Assembly (NCBI RefSeq): GCF_008329965.1
Contig: NZ_CP036150.1
Coordinates: forward strand, 2,046,001 to 2,110,000
Source: Oceanispirochaeta crateris
GTDB lineage: Bacteria; Spirochaetota; Spirochaetia; DSM-2461
Length of the DNA: 64,000 nt
Direction: 5' to 3'
Made by a program: the position numbers and the translations under genes. This document shows, one piece after another, positions 2,671-10,693 of the stretch. Positions within the stretch are counted from its first letter, which is position 1. Each line of letters starts with the position of its first letter. The notes below the pieces were generated by a model. The model did no database searches. It worked only from the letters and a program-made list of their open reading frames with translations, and was not told the DNA's origin.

Positions 2671-3132
2671 CTAATCACCGTCCCTCTTAGGAACTCTGTT
2701 GGAGCCACCTTCTGGTTCTGGAGAAATGCCGATTTTGAACCGGCATTCATCGTCACCATTTAGTACAGTTTTTAAAATTTGAACTTCAACTTCCCGACCA
2801 AGACTTATTTTAAACTTATGTTTTAAATTGCCAAGAGTACAATAACACATTGTTTTTGATGAGTTTTGAATATCATTGTTCACCAAAGGGCAGTAGCATT
2901 GGTCAAAAACAACATAGTGTTGATTATTCTCCTTCTTTAAGTGCCATACATCAATCAGCTTATCTAAAAAGTCTTCCTCATTTTTTGATTGATGACGAAG
3001 CTCTAATATTTTTTCGTTGGGCAAATGACTGAATGGGCAATGGGGTCCACATTTTTCAAGTATTTTTTGCTTGGAAATGTCATCCACATGATCATCTAAA
3101 TTTATGAGAAGTTCTTTTATCCAATGATTCAT
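2671..3132 (-). CDS. Small cysteine-rich protein of unknown function
   Basis: A 153-residue soluble protein that I do not recognise with certainty. It has CGPHC near residue 29, paired cysteines around QCYCPL and MCYCTLG, and a C-terminal GDDECRF. The last pattern recalls the cysteine region of small-molecule-binding V4R-like or DUF6144-type domains, a tentative likeness only. The spacing of the cysteines suggests metal binding. It stands alone, with a 260-bp spacer upstream. There is no signal peptide, so it should be cytoplasmic. The function is open. Confidence 0.6.
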   Translation of the reverse strand: MNHWIKELLINLDDHVDDISKQKILEKCGPHCPFSHLPNEKILELRHQSKNEEDFLDKLIDVWHLKKENNQHYVVFDQCYCPLVNNDIQNSSKTMCYCTLGNLKHKFKISLGREVEVQILKTVLNGDDECRFKIGISPEPEGGSNRVPKRDGD

Positions 3133-3392: not shown

Positions 3393-3917
3393 TTGAAAGA
3401 TTTTACTACATTATTTCTATCTTCATTACTGCTTTTCTCTTGTGCTACAAATACTGCTCTTTTAAACCCTGATTACAATCCCCAAAAGCAGGAATCAATC
3501 ATGCTTGGTAAGTATTCTTTGAAAACAAACAGTAAATTCAGTATTTATCTTGAATTTAAAAATACCGACCTCGATAAGGTTTATGGTGTGATTATGGAAG
3601 AGAAGGATCAGGATTCGTATAAAGCCATAAGTATTCTCCCTGGAAAGTATACCCTTACAAAAATGACCCTTGTTGATTTTCTCAATTCCACATTTGGGAC
3701 TGAGAGATTCAGAGACGACCCTCCTATTGAGTTTACGATTGAAGAAGGTCAAATCATCAATATTGGTGAAATTTCTGGACATATCAGTCAAACAGGTAGC
3801 AATATTAATTTTTCAATCCTATATATTGGCGATCCCGACTCATCTGTAGAAGATTATTTCACAGCGAATTATCCCTTTCTGGATGACTCAAGTATGTTTA
3901 GCCTGAAAGATGATTAA
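3393..3917 (+). CDS. Lipoprotein of unknown function
   Basis: A 174-residue predicted lipoprotein. The start is TTG, preceded by TAGGAG at normal spacing. Residues 1-16 are a signal sequence ending in LLFSC, so Cys17 should be lipidated; the FSC lipobox suits relaxed spirochaetal lipoboxes. The rest is beta-rich with an IYLEFKN...VYGV segment and a glycine-containing middle, which could form a small beta sandwich. No enzymatic motif is seen. It precedes the CotH operon on the same strand, but a 240-bp gap separates them, so cotranscription is not shown. Confidence 0.65.
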   Translation: MKDFTTLFLSSLLLFSCATNTALLNPDYNPQKQESIMLGKYSLKTNSKFSIYLEFKNTDLDKVYGVIMEEKDQDSYKAISILPGKYTLTKMTLVDFLNSTFGTERFRDDPPIEFTIEEGQIINIGEISGHISQTGSNINFSILYIGDPDSSVEDYFTANYPFLDDSSMFSLKDD

Positions 3918-4021: not shown

Positions 4022-4157
4022 AATAAGAAACTCAAGATGTACTGATAGTCATAAATACTGCACAGCCAATCCTCCATATTATCCATAGAACTTATGGACT
4101 CACAAAAGACACATTATAAACACATAGAGTTCAACTCCAAAAAATAGATTTCTCAGT

Positions 4158-5690
4158 ATGAACAAGTATCAAGGGATAAAGAATAAAAAAACTAAGCCCG
4201 GATTTCTATGTATTGCCCTGTTTGTATTGGTCTTAATGACTCTGAGTTGCGAAAACCCGCTTTCAAATCTCAGCGAAGATTTCGGGGAACTTTCATTTGT
4301 GGAGTCTATGACCAGCTGGGACGGATACAGTACTGCCAGCCATAGTGAAAACGCCGATGCCGATTACGATAAGATTTTTAACGACTCCCTTGTGCAGAGG
4401 ATAGATATCACAATAGACAATGATTATTACAAACTCATGGAAGAGGACATGACAACCCTGTATGGTAGTTTTGGTCAGGCAGGAAGAATGTCCGAGACCG
4501 ACAGTGATCCCATCTATGTTCCGGTTACCCTCAGATTCAATCCTGCTGACGGCAGCGATGAAGAACGGACCTGGTGGCATGTCGGTATGCGGTACAAAGG
4601 AAATTCCTCCCTACGGGATGCCTGGCAGGGTGGTATTCATAAGCTGCCCTTCCGATTAAATTTTGATGAATTTGATTATATATACTCCGAAATTGAAGAC
4701 CAGCGGTTCTGGGGTTTTGAAAAAATGACTTTCAGCAACGGGAAAGATGATGATTCTCTAATCCGCGATAAAATTGCCTCAGACCTTTACAAGGAAGCAG
4801 GAGTAGAGGTGGCAGAAGTGGCCTTCTGCCGCATCTTTATTGATGTTGGAGACGGGAATGGACCTGTATACTGGGGTCTCTACAGTATGATTGAAGATCC
4901 CTCAGATCAAATGCTGGATGAACAGTTTACCGATGGCAGCGGGAATTTGTATAAGCCCGATGATGAAACAAACTCAACTCTGGATTCTTTTAATGAGGCC
5001 TGGTATGAGAAAAAAACGAATGAAAGTGAGGCAGACTGGAGTGATATAAAATCACTGATAAGCGCCCTAGATAAGACGCCCTCCGGTTCTGATGACTCGT
5101 CCTGGCAGGCGACTCTGGAGTCAGTCTTTGACGTAGATAAATTTCTTGACTATCTGGCCATAAATAACTTTTCCAGAAACTGGGACGTTTACGGCTCCAA
5201 GGCACACAACTATTACCTCTACGGAGATCCCGATGATGGAGGAAGACTCACATGGTTTCCTTGGGATCTCAACGAGTCTTTTACCCTGTCCACCAGCAGC
5301 TTTAGTGGTCAGTGCCTAAGCATCTACGACACAAGCAGTGATTATAACGATAGAGATTGGCCTCTTCTATACTACGTGATGAATCAGGACACATACGTTA
5401 CATCCTATAAGGCAAAACTAGCGACTTTTTTTAACAACAGTGATTCTTACTTTTCATCAGACACTCACAGCACAACATCGAATGTGGGGATCTTTAATAT
5501 CTCGAACACCATAGAAGATCAAATGCAAACATATTCAGACCTGATTGAGAACTATGTCATAGGAGCTGATGGAGAAATAGAAGGATATACATGGTTTGAT
5601 CAAGACAGTGATTTTACACAAGGTCTGTCTGATCTTAAAACTCTAATTTCTAGCCAGTTCTCCACGGTTTCGTCATACCTTGAGGAGTAA
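4158..5690 (+). CDS. CotH-family kinase lipoprotein
   Basis: A member of the CotH family, atypical protein kinases first known from spore coats and also found in non-sporulating bacteria. Residues 1-30 are a signal sequence with lipobox LMTLSC (Cys31), so the protein is probably anchored to a membrane outside the cytoplasm. The CotH domain covers about residues 70-400: IDITIDNDYY, the glycine/lysine motif MRYKGNSSL, the loop GLYSMIEDPSDQML, and the acidic segment RLTWFPWDLNES, which would carry a metal-binding aspartate. It is the first gene of a tight operon with VTC-domain, DUF4956 and barrel genes. Extracytoplasmic phosphorylation is inferred from the family; the substrate is unknown. Confidence 0.88.
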   Translation: MNKYQGIKNKKTKPGFLCIALFVLVLMTLSCENPLSNLSEDFGELSFVESMTSWDGYSTASHSENADADYDKIFNDSLVQRIDITIDNDYYKLMEEDMTTLYGSFGQAGRMSETDSDPIYVPVTLRFNPADGSDEERTWWHVGMRYKGNSSLRDAWQGGIHKLPFRLNFDEFDYIYSEIEDQRFWGFEKMTFSNGKDDDSLIRDKIASDLYKEAGVEVAEVAFCRIFIDVGDGNGPVYWGLYSMIEDPSDQMLDEQFTDGSGNLYKPDDETNSTLDSFNEAWYEKKTNESEADWSDIKSLISALDKTPSGSDDSSWQATLESVFDVDKFLDYLAINNFSRNWDVYGSKAHNYYLYGDPDDGGRLTWFPWDLNESFTLSTSSFSGQCLSIYDTSSDYNDRDWPLLYYVMNQDTYVTSYKAKLATFFNNSDSYFSSDTHSTTSNVGIFNISNTIEDQMQTYSDLIENYVIGADGEIEGYTWFDQDSDFTQGLSDLKTLISSQFSTVSSYLEE

Positions 5691-5695
5691 AAACA

Positions 5696-6490
5696 ATGTT
5701 GAATTATATAAAGTACAGCTTAACCAACTTTAATAAAATCGAATTGAAAGATATGGAATCGGTGAAGCTGATGAACAGGAAAGAAAGTAAATACATCATC
5801 AACCGGAAAACACTGGCATTGATTCTGGATAAGATTCATGAAGATTATTTTATTCTGGAAATTCAAAAACAAAGGCTCATGCCTTATGAATCCAGGTACT
5901 TCGATTCTCCCCATTTTGACCTGTACAATACCCATCAAAATGGAAAACTGAATCGCTATAAGATCAGGAAAAGGACCTATATGACCACAGGTCTGCAATT
6001 TCTGGAACTGAAATTTAAGAACAATAAAAAAAGAACTATAAAAAAAAGAATTGAAATCACAGAAACGACCCATAGAAATGAAATTAAGGAGTTTCTCTAC
6101 AAGAACTATCCCGATTCCATCAATAAGCTGAGAGAAGTCCTCAAAATCAATTATGACAGGATCACCCTGGTGGATAAATCGTTGAAAGAAAGGATAACCA
6201 TCGATCTCAATTTGAGATTTACCGCGGATCATAAGAGTTCTTCCTATGAAGACATGGCCATTATCGAGATTAAGCACGAAGGAGATCTTAAGTCATCATC
6301 CATTGACAGGAAATTGAAAGAGAAAAGAATCAAACCAATATCCATAAGCAAATACTGCCTGGGGATCTACAGGCATTATGATCATGTGAAAACAAACCGC
6401 ATCAAAATTAAAATACGAGAAATGAATAAAGCCCTCAATGCGGCGCCCTCCCCTTTGAGGGGAAAGACAGTAAACAATAAGGCCTCATAA
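5696..6490 (+). CDS. VTC-domain (polyphosphate-polymerase-like) protein
   Basis: A 264-residue protein matching the VTC catalytic-domain family, in which a basic tunnel binds or makes polyphosphate. It shows the family pattern: an RKESKYI motif near residue 30, YESRYFDSPHFDLY, the basic stretch NRYKIRKRTY, FLELKFK, and a late EIKHEG acidic motif. It is soluble with a lysine/arginine-rich surface and probably works at the inner face of the membrane beside the next gene product. It follows cotH by 5 bp and precedes the DUF4956 gene by 29 bp. Polyphosphate synthesis is inferred from the family only. Confidence 0.85.
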   Translation: MLNYIKYSLTNFNKIELKDMESVKLMNRKESKYIINRKTLALILDKIHEDYFILEIQKQRLMPYESRYFDSPHFDLYNTHQNGKLNRYKIRKRTYMTTGLQFLELKFKNNKKRTIKKRIEITETTHRNEIKEFLYKNYPDSINKLREVLKINYDRITLVDKSLKERITIDLNLRFTADHKSSSYEDMAIIEIKHEGDLKSSSIDRKLKEKRIKPISISKYCLGIYRHYDHVKTNRIKIKIREMNKALNAAPSPLRGKTVNNKAS

Positions 6491-6519
6491 GCTGCAGGTT
6501 CTATTATTAGGAGACATCA

Positions 6520-7125
6520 TTGGAAAATATTGCCATGCTTTTATCAGATTCTATTCATTCACAGGAAATACAGACTCTAGTCTGCAGGTTTTCTATGGAT
6601 ATAATATTTATCCTCGTCCTCATATTGGGAATTTATTACAGAGTCAATAAAAACTCAGAATACGTATTTAACCTGATCATTTTTAACATCCTCATCTTTT
6701 TTGTATCCAGCCTTTTAAGCCGGATTACACTTCAAACAGGGTTTGCCTTTGGCTTATTCGCCATATTTTCCATTTTGCGTTACAGGACAGAAGCCATACC
6801 CATTAAAGAAATGACCTTCATGTTTATCTCCATCATTATGGCGACAATCAATTCCACAGTAACCTCAGATTTAAATTTACTGGAAATTCTCTTTGCTAAT
6901 ATCATCATAATCTTGGCAACTTTCATTATGGAAATCACCTGGCTTAAAAACTACAAACCATCAAAACAGATCATATTTGAACAGATCGAACTCATCCATG
7001 AAGATAGAAGAAAAGAGTTGATTGCTGAACTTGAAAAAAGAACAGGTTTAAAAATAAGCGATGTAAAAATCGACAAAATTGACTTCCTGCATGACACAGC
7101 AAAAATAACAACATATCTGGAGTAA
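6520..7125 (+). CDS. DUF4956 membrane protein
   Basis: A 201-residue protein with four predicted membrane segments in its first 145 residues, followed by a cytoplasmic tail of about 55 residues that looks like a small alpha/beta fold. It starts with TTG, preceded by TAGGAGA. The motif FGLFAIFSILRYRTEAIPIKEM is the signature region of DUF4956, a family often encoded next to VTC-domain proteins. Its place between the VTC and barrel genes with near-zero spacing suggests it is the membrane partner of the VTC protein. The molecular role is not known. Confidence 0.85.
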   Translation: MENIAMLLSDSIHSQEIQTLVCRFSMDIIFILVLILGIYYRVNKNSEYVFNLIIFNILIFFVSSLLSRITLQTGFAFGLFAIFSILRYRTEAIPIKEMTFMFISIIMATINSTVTSDLNLLEILFANIIIILATFIMEITWLKNYKPSKQIIFEQIELIHEDRRKELIAELEKRTGLKISDVKIDKIDFLHDTAKITTYLE

Positions 7126-7127
7126 AT

Positions 7128-8435
7128 ATGAATAAATTGAGAAATTTAATAACCATGATGCTCTTCGTTTGCGGAGTCAGTCTATTCGGAGAGATTCCAG
7201 ATTTGGAACTGGGTGGAATGAAGTTAGAGTTTGAAGGTGAAGTGCGCAGTCGTTTAGCCTATTTTAATAACTACGACATGGATTATGAGACATCTGATGC
7301 AAAAATTGCAGCAGATATGCGAGCTCAGTTTGCCATCGATATTCTAACACAATCGCCCTTTTACTTCAGCATCCTTACAGAATTGGGAAACATACAGTTT
7401 GATAATGAACTGGAAGGTTCTGATTTTTACCTCATAGAGCTAAAAGAATTCTATGGGGGTTACAATGGGGATGATGTGGAGGGAAAAGCAGGAATTATCG
7501 ATGTGAAAACACCGGACAGTTCGGTCTATGAGGATGATAACCTTGGTGTCCAGGCTAAAATTGATTTCGATTTTCTTCAAGCAAAAAGCTTTATTACAAT
7601 GCCCAATCTGCTTTCCGATTCCTGGGAAGTCGTTGATGGAATATCCAATTTGAGTTATCTCGCCTTTCTTGGTGCCAGTCAGGAATATTTTGTAGTGACA
7701 GATTTATGGACCATGTTTTTATGGGACAATGGTCCCGAAGACTTCTACTATTATTGTTTTTGGACCGGTTTGGAACTTGAAAAAAAATACAGAAGATTCT
7801 CGGGGAATTATGGATTTATTTACAATTTCGGAGCTGCGACCTATCTGAAAATACCCATATCGGCATACTACAGCCATTTAAAATTGGAACTGGAAACAAC
7901 AAAAAAGACGAAACTCTATTCAAGATTCAATCTATCTAGCGGAACTGACGGAAGTTCAGACACCATCAATCAGTTTCAAGTTGTCAATGGCGAGGGAAAC
8001 CTGGAGACGGGGCTGGGATTGCTTTTTGGAGGCAGTTCATTCAGCAATCAGTCTTATTTCAGTAACGAAAGCCTCAGCATTGTAGAAGACGGTCTTTCCA
8101 GTGGTGACTTTGCCTTTTCGGATCCAGGACTGTTTATTTACGAACTAGGATTCGAAATAGATGTCAATCAGCTCCTTGATACAACAGAATTTGTCCTAGG
8201 AGGGGCCAACACCGGGGAATTATTTGATGGCGAAGGGTATTTTACCAGTCTCATAGGATGGGAAATGGATATACACAACACAGTAAAATTTACGGATGAT
8301 CTCAAACTGAATCTCAGCTTCTCCTATCTTATTGCAGGGAACTCATTTAATGCTGTGTATGAACTCAACACGGGAGACAGCCTCACATTGGATACGTCCT
8401 TTAAAACAGACTGTTCTATCAAGTACAGCTATTGA
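7128..8435 (+). CDS. Predicted outer-membrane beta-barrel protein
   Basis: A 435-residue exported protein. Residues 1-21 are a signal peptide ending about LFG-EIP. The mature part is rich in alternating hydrophobic and aromatic strands (YYYCFWTGLEL, AYYSHLKLELE) and ends in aromatic-tipped strand CSIKYSY, as in barrel proteins. It has no recognised family motif, though it resembles the hypothetical barrels found with CotH/VTC genes. It starts 2 bp after the DUF4956 stop. Its 3' end overlaps the convergent histidine-kinase gene by 17 bp. It probably forms the outer-membrane part of the same system. Confidence 0.7.
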   Translation: MNKLRNLITMMLFVCGVSLFGEIPDLELGGMKLEFEGEVRSRLAYFNNYDMDYETSDAKIAADMRAQFAIDILTQSPFYFSILTELGNIQFDNELEGSDFYLIELKEFYGGYNGDDVEGKAGIIDVKTPDSSVYEDDNLGVQAKIDFDFLQAKSFITMPNLLSDSWEVVDGISNLSYLAFLGASQEYFVVTDLWTMFLWDNGPEDFYYYCFWTGLELEKKYRRFSGNYGFIYNFGAATYLKIPISAYYSHLKLELETTKKTKLYSRFNLSSGTDGSSDTINQFQVVNGEGNLETGLGLLFGGSSFSNQSYFSNESLSIVEDGLSSGDFAFSDPGLFIYELGFEIDVNQLLDTTEFVLGGANTGELFDGEGYFTSLIGWEMDIHNTVKFTDDLKLNLSFSYLIAGNSFNAVYELNTGDSLTLDTSFKTDCSIKYSY

Positions 8436-9921
8436 TTGCCGGGGTAAGCTCAAACCAGAATATGACCTTATCTTCGGCATTCTGAACCCCATAGTCGTTA
8501 TCATGCTGATCTTGTATTGCCTTCACTATGGATAGGCCGAGTCCATATCCGCCATATTGACGGGACCTGGCCTTGTCCACTTTATAATAGCTATGCCATA
8601 TTTTATCGATGCTGTCCTCGGGAATCAGACTCCCCGTATTGGAAACATTGACCCGCACCTTATTGTAAATTGTTTTATCAACAGAAAGCGAAATCTGTCT
8701 TTTTCCATCAATATGATTAAGAGCATTCGTAATATAATTTTCCAAGACCTGTATGATTCGAACTCGGTCTGCTCTGACAGGAATATCTCCCTTCATATCA
8801 AATGTACAAGTGACATTCTTTTCTTGAAAAACCCGTTTATATTTCATAAGAGTGCTATCGATGAGCTGCTTTATATTAAAATCGGATAATTCTAGAATGT
8901 AATTTGCCGATTCAAGATAGGAAAGCTCCAGTAGATTCTGCACATGTTTTTCCATTTTTGAAGTTTCATCTACAATGACTTCACAATAATAATTTCGACT
9001 TTCTTCATCACTCGCTATATTCTCAAGCAGCCCTTCTGCATAGCCCTTAATCAAAGACAGGGGTGTACGCAGTTCATGAGAAATACTAAAAATAAAGTCC
9101 TTTCTCATATCATCTATTTTTTGCTTCTCCTCATTTTCGACTAAAAGACCTTCATTCATCTTCTGCAAATCGCTGATAGAACGGTTCAATTGATCGGAAA
9201 GAGAATTGATACTGGAACCGAGAGATCCAATCTCATCGTTGGTCGTTACTTTGTATTTTTTACTAAAATCCAAACGGGACATACTGACTGCGATATCTGT
9301 CAACTCTTGAATTGGTTGGGTAAATAAACTTGAAAGGATTAGAGCCACAATGCTCCCGGCAATCAATGATATGATTCCGGCAATAGAAATAAACCGGCTT
9401 GCAATATGGGTGCTCTGATCGATGGATGCCAGGGGCCTGCTTAAAATCAGAATGATATCATCAGAAATAATAGTCATCATATTAAAAATGGTCGTATTGA
9501 GAATAGGATCAAACTGCTCTTGGAAAATATACCTTGTTTGTCCGATTGATAAATTCTCTATTCCCTTTTGATCAATAGGAATCTCATTGGGAGGCCGATT
9601 TCTAGGAGGAGCAGACATTGGAGGATGAGAATCATTGTTTTGAAATGTAGAATAAATCATTTCATTTCCAAGAGACCTGAGAGAGAGAATATACCCCTCC
9701 AGTCTCTCAACCCGCAAAACTTCGGTATAAAATGATTCCAAATCGTCTAAATATAATTCATTAAGCAAAGATGACACTTCAATATAATTCTTTTTTTGGG
9801 AATTGATATAGAATGGCTTTATAAAAAAGTTGGTCAGCATTAATAAAAACAGAACAAAGCCAAGAACCAGTGCCGTAATCCACAAAAACAGTTTAAGACG
9901 GATTGAAAAGAATACCCTCAT
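8419..9921 (-). CDS. Sensor histidine kinase
   Basis: A membrane histidine kinase. TM1 is at about 8-33, then a periplasmic region of some 140 residues that includes a proline-rich patch near 99-115, TM2 at about 173-198, a HAMP linker, and a HisKA domain with the phosphoacceptor His282 in SHELRTPLSL. The C-terminal ATPase has an N box (ENYITNALNH) and G boxes (VSNTG; GGYGLGLSI). The gene overlaps the upstream response regulator by ATGA, so the two are translationally coupled. It converges on the CotH operon and may control it, but no direct evidence is visible. The signal is unknown. Confidence 0.92.
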   Translation of the reverse strand: MRVFFSIRLKLFLWITALVLGFVLFLLMLTNFFIKPFYINSQKKNYIEVSSLLNELYLDDLESFYTEVLRVERLEGYILSLRSLGNEMIYSTFQNNDSHPPMSAPPRNRPPNEIPIDQKGIENLSIGQTRYIFQEQFDPILNTTIFNMMTIISDDIILILSRPLASIDQSTHIASRFISIAGIISLIAGSIVALILSSLFTQPIQELTDIAVSMSRLDFSKKYKVTTNDEIGSLGSSINSLSDQLNRSISDLQKMNEGLLVENEEKQKIDDMRKDFIFSISHELRTPLSLIKGYAEGLLENIASDEESRNYYCEVIVDETSKMEKHVQNLLELSYLESANYILELSDFNIKQLIDSTLMKYKRVFQEKNVTCTFDMKGDIPVRADRVRIIQVLENYITNALNHIDGKRQISLSVDKTIYNKVRVNVSNTGSLIPEDSIDKIWHSYYKVDKARSRQYGGYGLGLSIVKAIQDQHDNDYGVQNAEDKVIFWFELTPAINSCT

Positions 9922-10592
9922 GAAATGACCTCAAACCTGTAACCGAAATTCCGGACAGTCTGAATATAATGTGCACATTTCCCAAGTTTTTTCCGTAGTT
10001 TTTTAACATGGGTATCTACGGTTCTCATACCTTTATAATAGTTGAAGTCCCAAACAGAATTCAGAATTTGATCACGGCTGAGTGCCTGATCCCGATTATC
10101 AATTAAGAGCAATAATAATTCATATTCCTTAGGAGACAATTCGAGCCTTTCACCTTCTAGAACAAAAAAACGGCCCTTTCTATTCACCTCTAGGATGCCG
10201 AATTTTTCACTTCCTACATCATCTTTTTTCAATCTCTTCAGGATCGAGTTGACCCGCGCAACAAGGATTTTAGGACTGAAGGGTTTTTTAATATACTCAT
10301 CTACCCCCATTTCAAATCCTAAAAGTTCATTTGACTCTTCTCCCCGGGCAGTAAGCATGAAGATGGGAACATCTGATTCTTTTCTGATTTCCCTGCAAAC
10401 AGCCCAACCATCAAGAACGGGCATCATGACGTCCAATATGATCAGATCAATGCTTTTCTCTCTTCTAAAGATTTCCAGAGCACTTTGTCCATCCTGGGCT
10501 TCCAATACTAAAAAACCATCTTTTTTGAGGAAATCACTGACTAACTTCCTGATTCTGTGCTCATCATCAACAATCAATATCGTATTAGCCAC
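9918..10592 (-). CDS. OmpR-family response regulator
   Basis: A 224-residue DNA-binding response regulator. The receiver domain covers residues 1-120, with the acidic pair DD9-10, the phosphoacceptor Asp54 in LIILDVMMP, a Thr in MLTARG, and Lys in YIKKPF. Residues 125-224 form a winged-helix domain of the OmpR/PhoB type (LELSPKEYELLLLL; VDTHVKKLRKKL; VRNFGYRFE). It is the partner of the kinase that follows it with an ATGA overlap. An AGGAGGTTTT ribosome site precedes the ATG. Confidence 0.93.
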   Translation of the reverse strand: MANTILIVDDEHRIRKLVSDFLKKDGFLVLEAQDGQSALEIFRREKSIDLIILDVMMPVLDGWAVCREIRKESDVPIFMLTARGEESNELLGFEMGVDEYIKKPFSPKILVARVNSILKRLKKDDVGSEKFGILEVNRKGRFFVLEGERLELSPKEYELLLLLIDNRDQALSRDQILNSVWDFNYYKGMRTVDTHVKKLRKKLGKCAHYIQTVRNFGYRFEVIS

Positions 10593-10693
10593 AAAACCTC
10601 CTTTAATAGTTCCTTATGTATTTAGATAAATGATTTGTCTGTTGTCCACTCTTTTTCGATGACAGCTTTCTATGCCGCCGGCCGGTACTATTT

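Follow-up and report, generated by a model that had tools for sequence, protein, structure and literature searches.

A conserved CotH, VTC, DUF4956 and probable barrel gene unit in Oceanispirochaeta crateris and its possible role in phosphate-polymer traffic across the envelope

The spirochaete Oceanispirochaeta crateris carries, within 64,000 nucleotides (nt) of its 4.0-Mb, single-contig genome (assembly GCF_008329965.1, contig NZ_CP036150.1, positions 2,046,001 to 2,110,000; hereafter the window), four consecutive genes for a CotH-family kinase, a VTC-domain enzyme, a DUF4956 membrane protein and a secreted protein of 435 residues. All of them lie on the plus strand, with intergenic gaps of 5, 29 and 2 nt (Table 1), and the last protein is, judging from its sequence, probably an outer-membrane β-barrel. 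The same four genes recur in identical order, with an orthologous barrel, in two other genomes (L148, of the same genus, and L152, of another genus), which indicates that the arrangement is more than chance. It is tentatively proposed here, with somewhat less than even confidence, that the four genes form one envelope-spanning phosphate-polymer unit. A preliminary description of this DNA had predicted the row of four genes and a two-component pair converging on it, and the list of open reading frames (ORFs) together with Pfam confirmed all of these genes in their places and on their strands and, the fourth protein excepted, in their families.

Conservation of the four-gene unit

The proteins of L148 are 57% (CotH), 51% (VTC), 72% (DUF4956) and 44% (barrel) identical to those of the window, and those of L152 are 52%, 50%, 61% and 45% identical, respectively. 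The gaps within the unit measure 2–12 nt in both genomes, and the spacing between the DUF4956 and barrel genes is 2–3 nt in all three. This spacing is kept in spite of different surroundings, which consist of chemoreceptor, GFA and LacI genes in the window, of genes for transporters, a PrsW protease and an aminotransferase in L148, and of genes for alanine racemase, a histone-deacetylase-family protein and a diguanylate cyclase in L152.

Relatives of the window DUF4956 protein are present in 7 of the 26 genomes of the order. Besides the four-gene unit (class A), the family holds three further kinds of CotH-DUF4956 locus. Class B shows the order VTC-DUF4956-barrel-CotH (L150, L153 and L155), class C the order barrel-CotH-DUF4956 without VTC (L128, which belongs to O. 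crateris itself, L149, L156 and L157), and class D, represented by L154, a barrel and a CotH gene divergent from a short DUF4956 gene. The unit of L128 precedes a gene read by eye as that of an isoleucyl-tRNA synthetase, and L149 has an order of gene lengths similar to that of L128. A secreted barrel-like gene accompanies 11 of the 12 DUF4956 loci of the family, a set made up of 11 matches to the window DUF4956 protein plus the second locus of O. crateris, in which L033 and L151 (of the same length and gene order) are counted once. The preliminary description had left the co-occurrence of the barrel with CotH and VTC in relatives to a survey, and these loci, above all L148 and L152, supply it.

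Association of the families in the phylum and in Bacteroidota

Among 296 genomes of the phylum, DUF4956 is found in 42, VTC in 24 and CotH in 46, as counted from the coordinates of 47, 26 and 95 places. DUF4956 and CotH occur together in 34 genomes (Fisher p 6e-27, uncorrected for relatedness). Of the 23 VTC genes that exceed the cut-off, 22 have a DUF4956 gene no more than 3 kb away; seen from the 47 DUF4956 places, VTC is found within 3 kb in 22 and CotH within 5 kb in 30. CotH also occurs without VTC. In L126, from another spirochaete family, a gene for a secreted protein of 402 residues follows VTC-DUF4956, and in L054 this position is taken by a 380-residue protein with sub-threshold outer-membrane matches.

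Some further arrangements were observed in another spirochaete family. In L121–L123 and L125, DUF4956 stands beside genes that by eye resemble CheR and CheD, several CotH genes lie near it in L123 and L125, and a barrel homologue precedes a 1351-residue protein with Ig-like and CBM26 matches.

A set of 80 DUF4956 loci was also retrieved, of which 77 (all except L045, L063 and L077) have a called DUF4956 gene. This sample is biased, because it consists of the closest of at least 557 matches, and the counts taken from it hold for these best 80. VTC is found within two genes of DUF4956 in 67 of the 73 loci with an upstream gene, and CotH in 18 of the 80. A DUF2490-type gene (PF10677 in the two members scanned) comes next after DUF4956 in 34 of 75 loci and is no more than three genes away in 41 of 77. 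The DUF4956 genes of 148 Bacteroidota genomes, drawn as a sample, separate by score into 14 of the window subfamily and 39 others. Members of the window subfamily have VTC within 1.5 kb in 12 of 14 cases and DUF2490 within 2.5 kb in 9 of 14, and the others have VTC in 18 of 39 and DUF2490 in none. The DUF2490 counts refer to genomes with DUF4956, leaving out two weak G350 rows on contigs that lack it. The slot of the barrel is filled by lineage-specific families: the window family, relatives of Porin_O_P in the sister loci, and DUF2490 in Bacteroidota. This position-sharing is shown by the loci themselves.

Properties of the four proteins

CotH kinase. The match of the first protein to its Pfam family reaches 173.7 bits against a cut-off of 23.8. 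A lipobox (LMTLSC, residues 26–31) can be read from its N-terminus. The protein aligns with Bacillus cereus CotH (5jd9), and this alignment points to D343 and D370 as the candidate catalytic aspartates, which face the Asp residues of the NFD and PWD motifs of 5jd9. These two lie 23 residues apart in 5jd9, the same spacing as that between D228 and D251, the catalytic aspartates reported for Bacillus subtilis CotH (PMC7821199), a comparison made through 5jd9 and not through an alignment with the B. subtilis protein. In an alignment of 44 rows, 4 of which are gapped at both columns, D343 is present in 39 and D370 in 40 of the 40 rows with a letter there. Both residues, together with lipoprotein-like N-termini, are also kept in the CotH proteins of the spirochaete loci. 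The catalytic residues of the window protein fit a kinase.

VTC enzyme. The VTC catalytic domain is the sole Pfam domain of the second protein at E 0.1. The preliminary description had placed this protein at the inner membrane, a location that goes beyond the catalytic domain that Pfam recognizes. A profile built from 46 relatives retrieves yeast Vtc4 (3g3q) with an E value of 4.1e-5. R87, R91, R93, E104, K106, K116, R155, E191, K193, S218 and K219 are invariant in the 46 sequences, and the basic and acidic ones face tunnel motifs of Vtc4, the last aligned block scoring poorly when taken alone. Inactivating mutations of Vtc4 are reported to affect R264, R266 and E426 (PMC9911596). The invariant residues of the window family fit a polyphosphate polymerase, and polyphosphate would be the expected product.

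DUF4956 protein. The AlphaFold model of the third protein, with a predicted local distance difference test (pLDDT) score of 87.2, shows N-terminal helices and a C-terminal β-α-β-β domain. R87, R89 and the triplet R174-T175-G176 are invariant in an alignment of 52 sequences, and the nearest named relative, among the best 80 of at least 557 matches, is a 64% identical protein from a Spirochaetaceae metagenome genome. A search of the PDB by sequence gave no match to this protein. A comparison of the C-terminal domain yielded Z scores of about 5 with α/β domains, and AcuB in Foldseek, none of them significant. The top row of the search with the whole fold was a plant ALMT protein, whose Z of 6.2 is under a meaningful level, and no relationship to it is claimed. 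The counterpart of this protein has been described as an MgtC-like membrane domain with an ACT domain (PMC12345266). Two DUF4956 genes without the C-terminal domain (L154, 8276–8734; L127, 8684–9142) have no VTC neighbour; such a neighbour is, however, also missing from ten full-length genes of the window subfamily, of which four stand at the edge of a contig. That the C-terminal domain may dock the VTC enzyme is put forward as a lead.

Probable barrel. The preliminary description had called the fourth protein an outer-membrane barrel. It has a signal-peptide-like start and is barrel-like in sequence, but it has no Pfam family over the cut-off, and its single-sequence AlphaFold model is of low confidence (pLDDT 28.7). 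About 18 amphipathic stretches can be recognized, and its strand score lies at the 93rd percentile among the proteins of the fetched loci. This score is home-made and separates poorly, because response regulators reach the 83rd percentile. All porin and alginate-export (Alginate_exp) matches of its homologues are sub-threshold. Porin_O_P (PF07396) does not match the window barrel at E 0.1, and is matched above the cut-off by the class B barrels of L153 (3.9e-8) and L155 (6.3e-8); the L150 barrel shows no such match but is 42% identical to that of L153. In profile comparisons, the window barrel is weakly similar to the class B barrels with Porin_O_P matches (probability 51) and not to those of class C, and classes B and C resemble each other (probability 87). 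A PDB profile search with three barrel alignments returned nothing at E 10, and no homologue was found in the plasmid collection. The window family is rare, being present in 7 of the 296 phylum genomes, most of them without the four-gene unit. Distant homologues (28–29% identical) lie 6–8 kb from DUF4956 in G066, G089 and G094, which belong to another family, and in G124 the distant homologue and DUF4956 are on separate contigs.

The convergent two-component pair and neighbouring features

The 3' end of the histidine kinase gene overlaps the end of the barrel gene by 17 nt. An orthologous convergent pair is kept beside the unit in one of the two relatives, L148 (kinase 45% identical over its full length, regulator 64%). 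Beside the unit of L152 the pair is absent, and it must therefore be regarded as an associate and not as a core part. Its role as a local regulator of the operon is plausible. The scores of the response regulator against PhoB-like families are good but stay under the cut-offs. The motif ACAAMAGACAMAT has two exact copies in the window, one upstream of CotH and the other upstream of the response regulator gene. When one mismatch is allowed, 3 occurrences are found against 0.56 expected, a figure to be read in the light of the motif having been picked after the sequences had been seen. A 22-base footprint pattern derived from three upstream regions could not be located in the window, not even when 3 mismatches were tolerated.

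No relative of the lipoprotein-like ORF that precedes CotH was found in the loci examined. Further upstream, on the opposite strand, lies a DUF6144 gene (2671–3132, minus), which shows no apparent relation to the unit.

Table 1. Coordinates of the four-gene unit and of associated features in the window.
Feature	Position	Strand	Basis or remark
CotH-family kinase, 510 aa	4158..5690	+	PF08757 E 8.8e-51; lipoprotein-like N-terminus
VTC-domain (triphosphate tunnel) enzyme, 264 aa	5696..6490	+	PF09359 E 4.8e-25
DUF4956 membrane protein, 201 aa	6520..7125	+	PF16316 E 1.8e-46
Probable outer-membrane β-barrel, 435 aa, signal peptide, C-terminal Tyr	7128..8435	+	Orthologues in same position
Histidine kinase (HAMP, HisKA, HATPase), convergent	8419..9921	-	Pfam
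OmpR/PhoB-type response regulator	9918..10592	-	Pfam and NCBIfam, under equivalog cut-offs
Lipoprotein-like ORF, 174 aa, 240 nt upstream of CotH	3393..3917	+	Membership doubtful
Candidate regulator site ACAAAAGACACAT	4102..4114	+	Precedes CotH; motif chosen post hoc, a lead only
Candidate regulator site ACAACAGACAAAT	10633..10645	-	Precedes response regulator gene; motif chosen post hoc, a lead only

Proposed function and alternative explanations

In the phosphate-polymer unit proposed here, the VTC enzyme would reside in the cytosol and, as its residues suggest, polymerize phosphate from ATP in its basic tunnel. The inner-membrane DUF4956 protein, whose gene is adjacent, would anchor the enzyme and pass the chain across, a task that falls to membrane-embedded portions in the eukaryotic VTC complex; the barrel might give the polymer, or phosphate, passage through the outer membrane, and CotH, held by its lipid anchor, would phosphorylate extracytoplasmic targets. 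The idea of a conduit is taken from the analogy with the yeast VTC complex, a polymerase in which synthesis is reported to be coupled to the passage of the product through a basic membrane channel (PMC9911596). The preliminary description had already suggested modification or export at the envelope linked to polyphosphate or phosphate, and the tunnel and the catalytic residues fit this, as do the barrels of the phosphate-porin family in the sister loci; the product and its export remain suppositions.

Several observations weigh against this proposal. The genome also encodes PPK1, so that the bulk of polyphosphate does not require VTC. The fold search with DUF4956 gave no Foldseek match with E ≤ 0.001 and a best Z of 6.2, and the channel role is therefore unproven. 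The second locus of O. crateris (L128, 4756–12146; about 645–652 kb) has barrel, CotH and DUF4956 without VTC, within a polysaccharide cluster. In the one family locus without a barrel-like gene, on a 3.4-kb contig of G307, the gene after VTC-DUF4956 encodes a chemoreceptor-like protein that matches PilZ weakly. Finally, none of the 39 DUF4956 genes of the other subfamily in the 148 Bacteroidota genomes has DUF2490 within 2.5 kb. The order VTC-DUF4956-chemoreceptor/PilZ at L151/L033 (1385–3151) raises a possible link to cyclic di-GMP.

A bolder extension of the proposal, considered quite unlikely, is a line of extracellular phosphorylation that dispenses with ATP: VTC would make polyphosphate, DUF4956 would thread it through the inner membrane, and the lipid-anchored CotH would use it as the donor for phosphorylating proteins or polymers of the surface, the barrel being either the exit or a substrate. 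If true, this would solve the phosphate source of the extracytoplasmic CotH-type kinases.

The main rival is that the genes constitute an accessory module of a polysaccharide, in which CotH, VTC and DUF4956 act on an exopolysaccharide as modifiers or regulators and the barrel exports or anchors it. The preliminary description had left out such a role, which is documented for the streptococcal counterpart. In Gram-positive bacteria the trio adjoins pelDEADAFG (PMC7112168), and in Streptococcus intermedius the deletion of the DUF4956 or CotH counterpart alters the level of Pel and aggregation, the latter falling to less than half in one medium (PMC12345266). According to the same source, none of the three counterparts is essential for Pel, and aggregation is still possible after deletion of the polymerase. 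This role stays the main rival because the second CotH-DUF4956 locus of O. crateris belongs to a glycosyltransferase cluster, in which it comes after the genes of a Wzx-like flippase, of two glycosyltransferases and of an SdiA-regulated protein; a barrel homologue with a sub-threshold Alginate_exp match also agrees with it. On the other hand, no polysaccharide gene was found among the scanned genes flanking the unit in the three genomes, and no pel gene among the scanned neighbours in the window, L148 and L152, a scan that did not cover every ORF and was not accompanied by a whole-genome search for pel. A polysaccharide role is thus real for some members and, in view of the streptococcal Pel phenotypes and of the second locus, possible for the window unit, for which, as a full explanation, it seems somewhat unlikely.

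Another explanation, judged unlikely, is a surface phosphorylation system, in which VTC and DUF4956 would supply a donor on the outside and CotH would phosphorylate the barrel or other surface proteins. The retained aspartates and lipoprotein-like character of CotH in the spirochaete loci, as well as the co-occurrence of the trio in the phylum, are consistent with it, and the source of ATP for CotH has been called an unanswered question (PMC7821199). Nevertheless, the same article reports that CotH uses ATP as a substrate in vitro; VTC-DUF4956 pairs often have no CotH nearby, as the counts from the best 80 loci indicate, and CotH is found without VTC.

The unit could also serve the uptake and storage of phosphate or polyphosphate, with the barrel importing, VTC storing and the PhoB/PhoR-like pair exerting control. 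The Porin_O_P barrels of the sister loci and the PhoB-like scores of the regulator point in this direction, but no phosphate transporter was detected among the scanned neighbours of the unit, and L152 lacks the regulator pair beside it, which makes this function decidedly unlikely. That chance alone placed the barrel and the regulator pair beside the trio would accord with the rarity of the barrel family, largely found apart from the unit, and is nonetheless highly improbable given the DUF4956-barrel spacing of 2–3 nt kept amid different flanks and the barrel-like neighbour in nearly all family loci.

Relation to known systems and significance

The closest known counterparts of the trio are the accessory genes of the Gram-positive pel loci (PMC7112168; SIR_1592–1594, PMC12345266), where the same three families are contiguous. 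Contrary to these, the window trio belongs to a diderm, has no pel gene among the scanned neighbours, encodes a lipoprotein-like CotH and a DUF4956 protein of the high-scoring subfamily, and includes the additional barrel. According to a 2025 paper, the trio did not turn up outside the Pel locus in the analyses made there (PMC12345266). This does not hold generally, because the trio is present in the window, L148 and L152 without polysaccharide genes among the scanned neighbours.

With the eukaryotic VTC complex (Vtc1/Vtc3/Vtc4; PMC9911596) the unit shares the tunnel domain, the basic residues and an adjacent membrane partner. It differs in that the window VTC protein has neither an SPX domain nor a C-terminal membrane domain (Pfam, E 0.1), and in that DUF4956 is not known as a relative of Vtc1. 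VTC and CotH are also reported in one locus with a glycosyltransferase, NELoc-2 of Clostridium perfringens (PMC2879425, PMC11677781), which is Gram-positive and has no barrel. A table line in PMC10434189 lists a DUF4956 gene with a DUF2490 gene (BT3498–3499) in the iron stimulon of Bacteroides thetaiotaomicron. In the literature searched on CotH together with VTC, DUF2490, porins and polyphosphate (most subscription papers and bioRxiv being outside its scope), no account of the link to a barrel was recognized.

Recent streptococcal work has tied CotH, VTC and DUF4956 to Pel. The surface of gonococci bears polyphosphate, whose passage through the outer membrane is ascribed to unnamed gene products (PMC10237660). 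The presence of the trio outside Pel loci, together with a barrel slot that can be filled by different families, offers a concrete model for surface polyphosphate and a possible way for kinases in ATP-poor surroundings to obtain phosphate. The four-gene unit of O. crateris and its relatives thus suggests a testable route by which a phosphate polymer may reach the cell surface.

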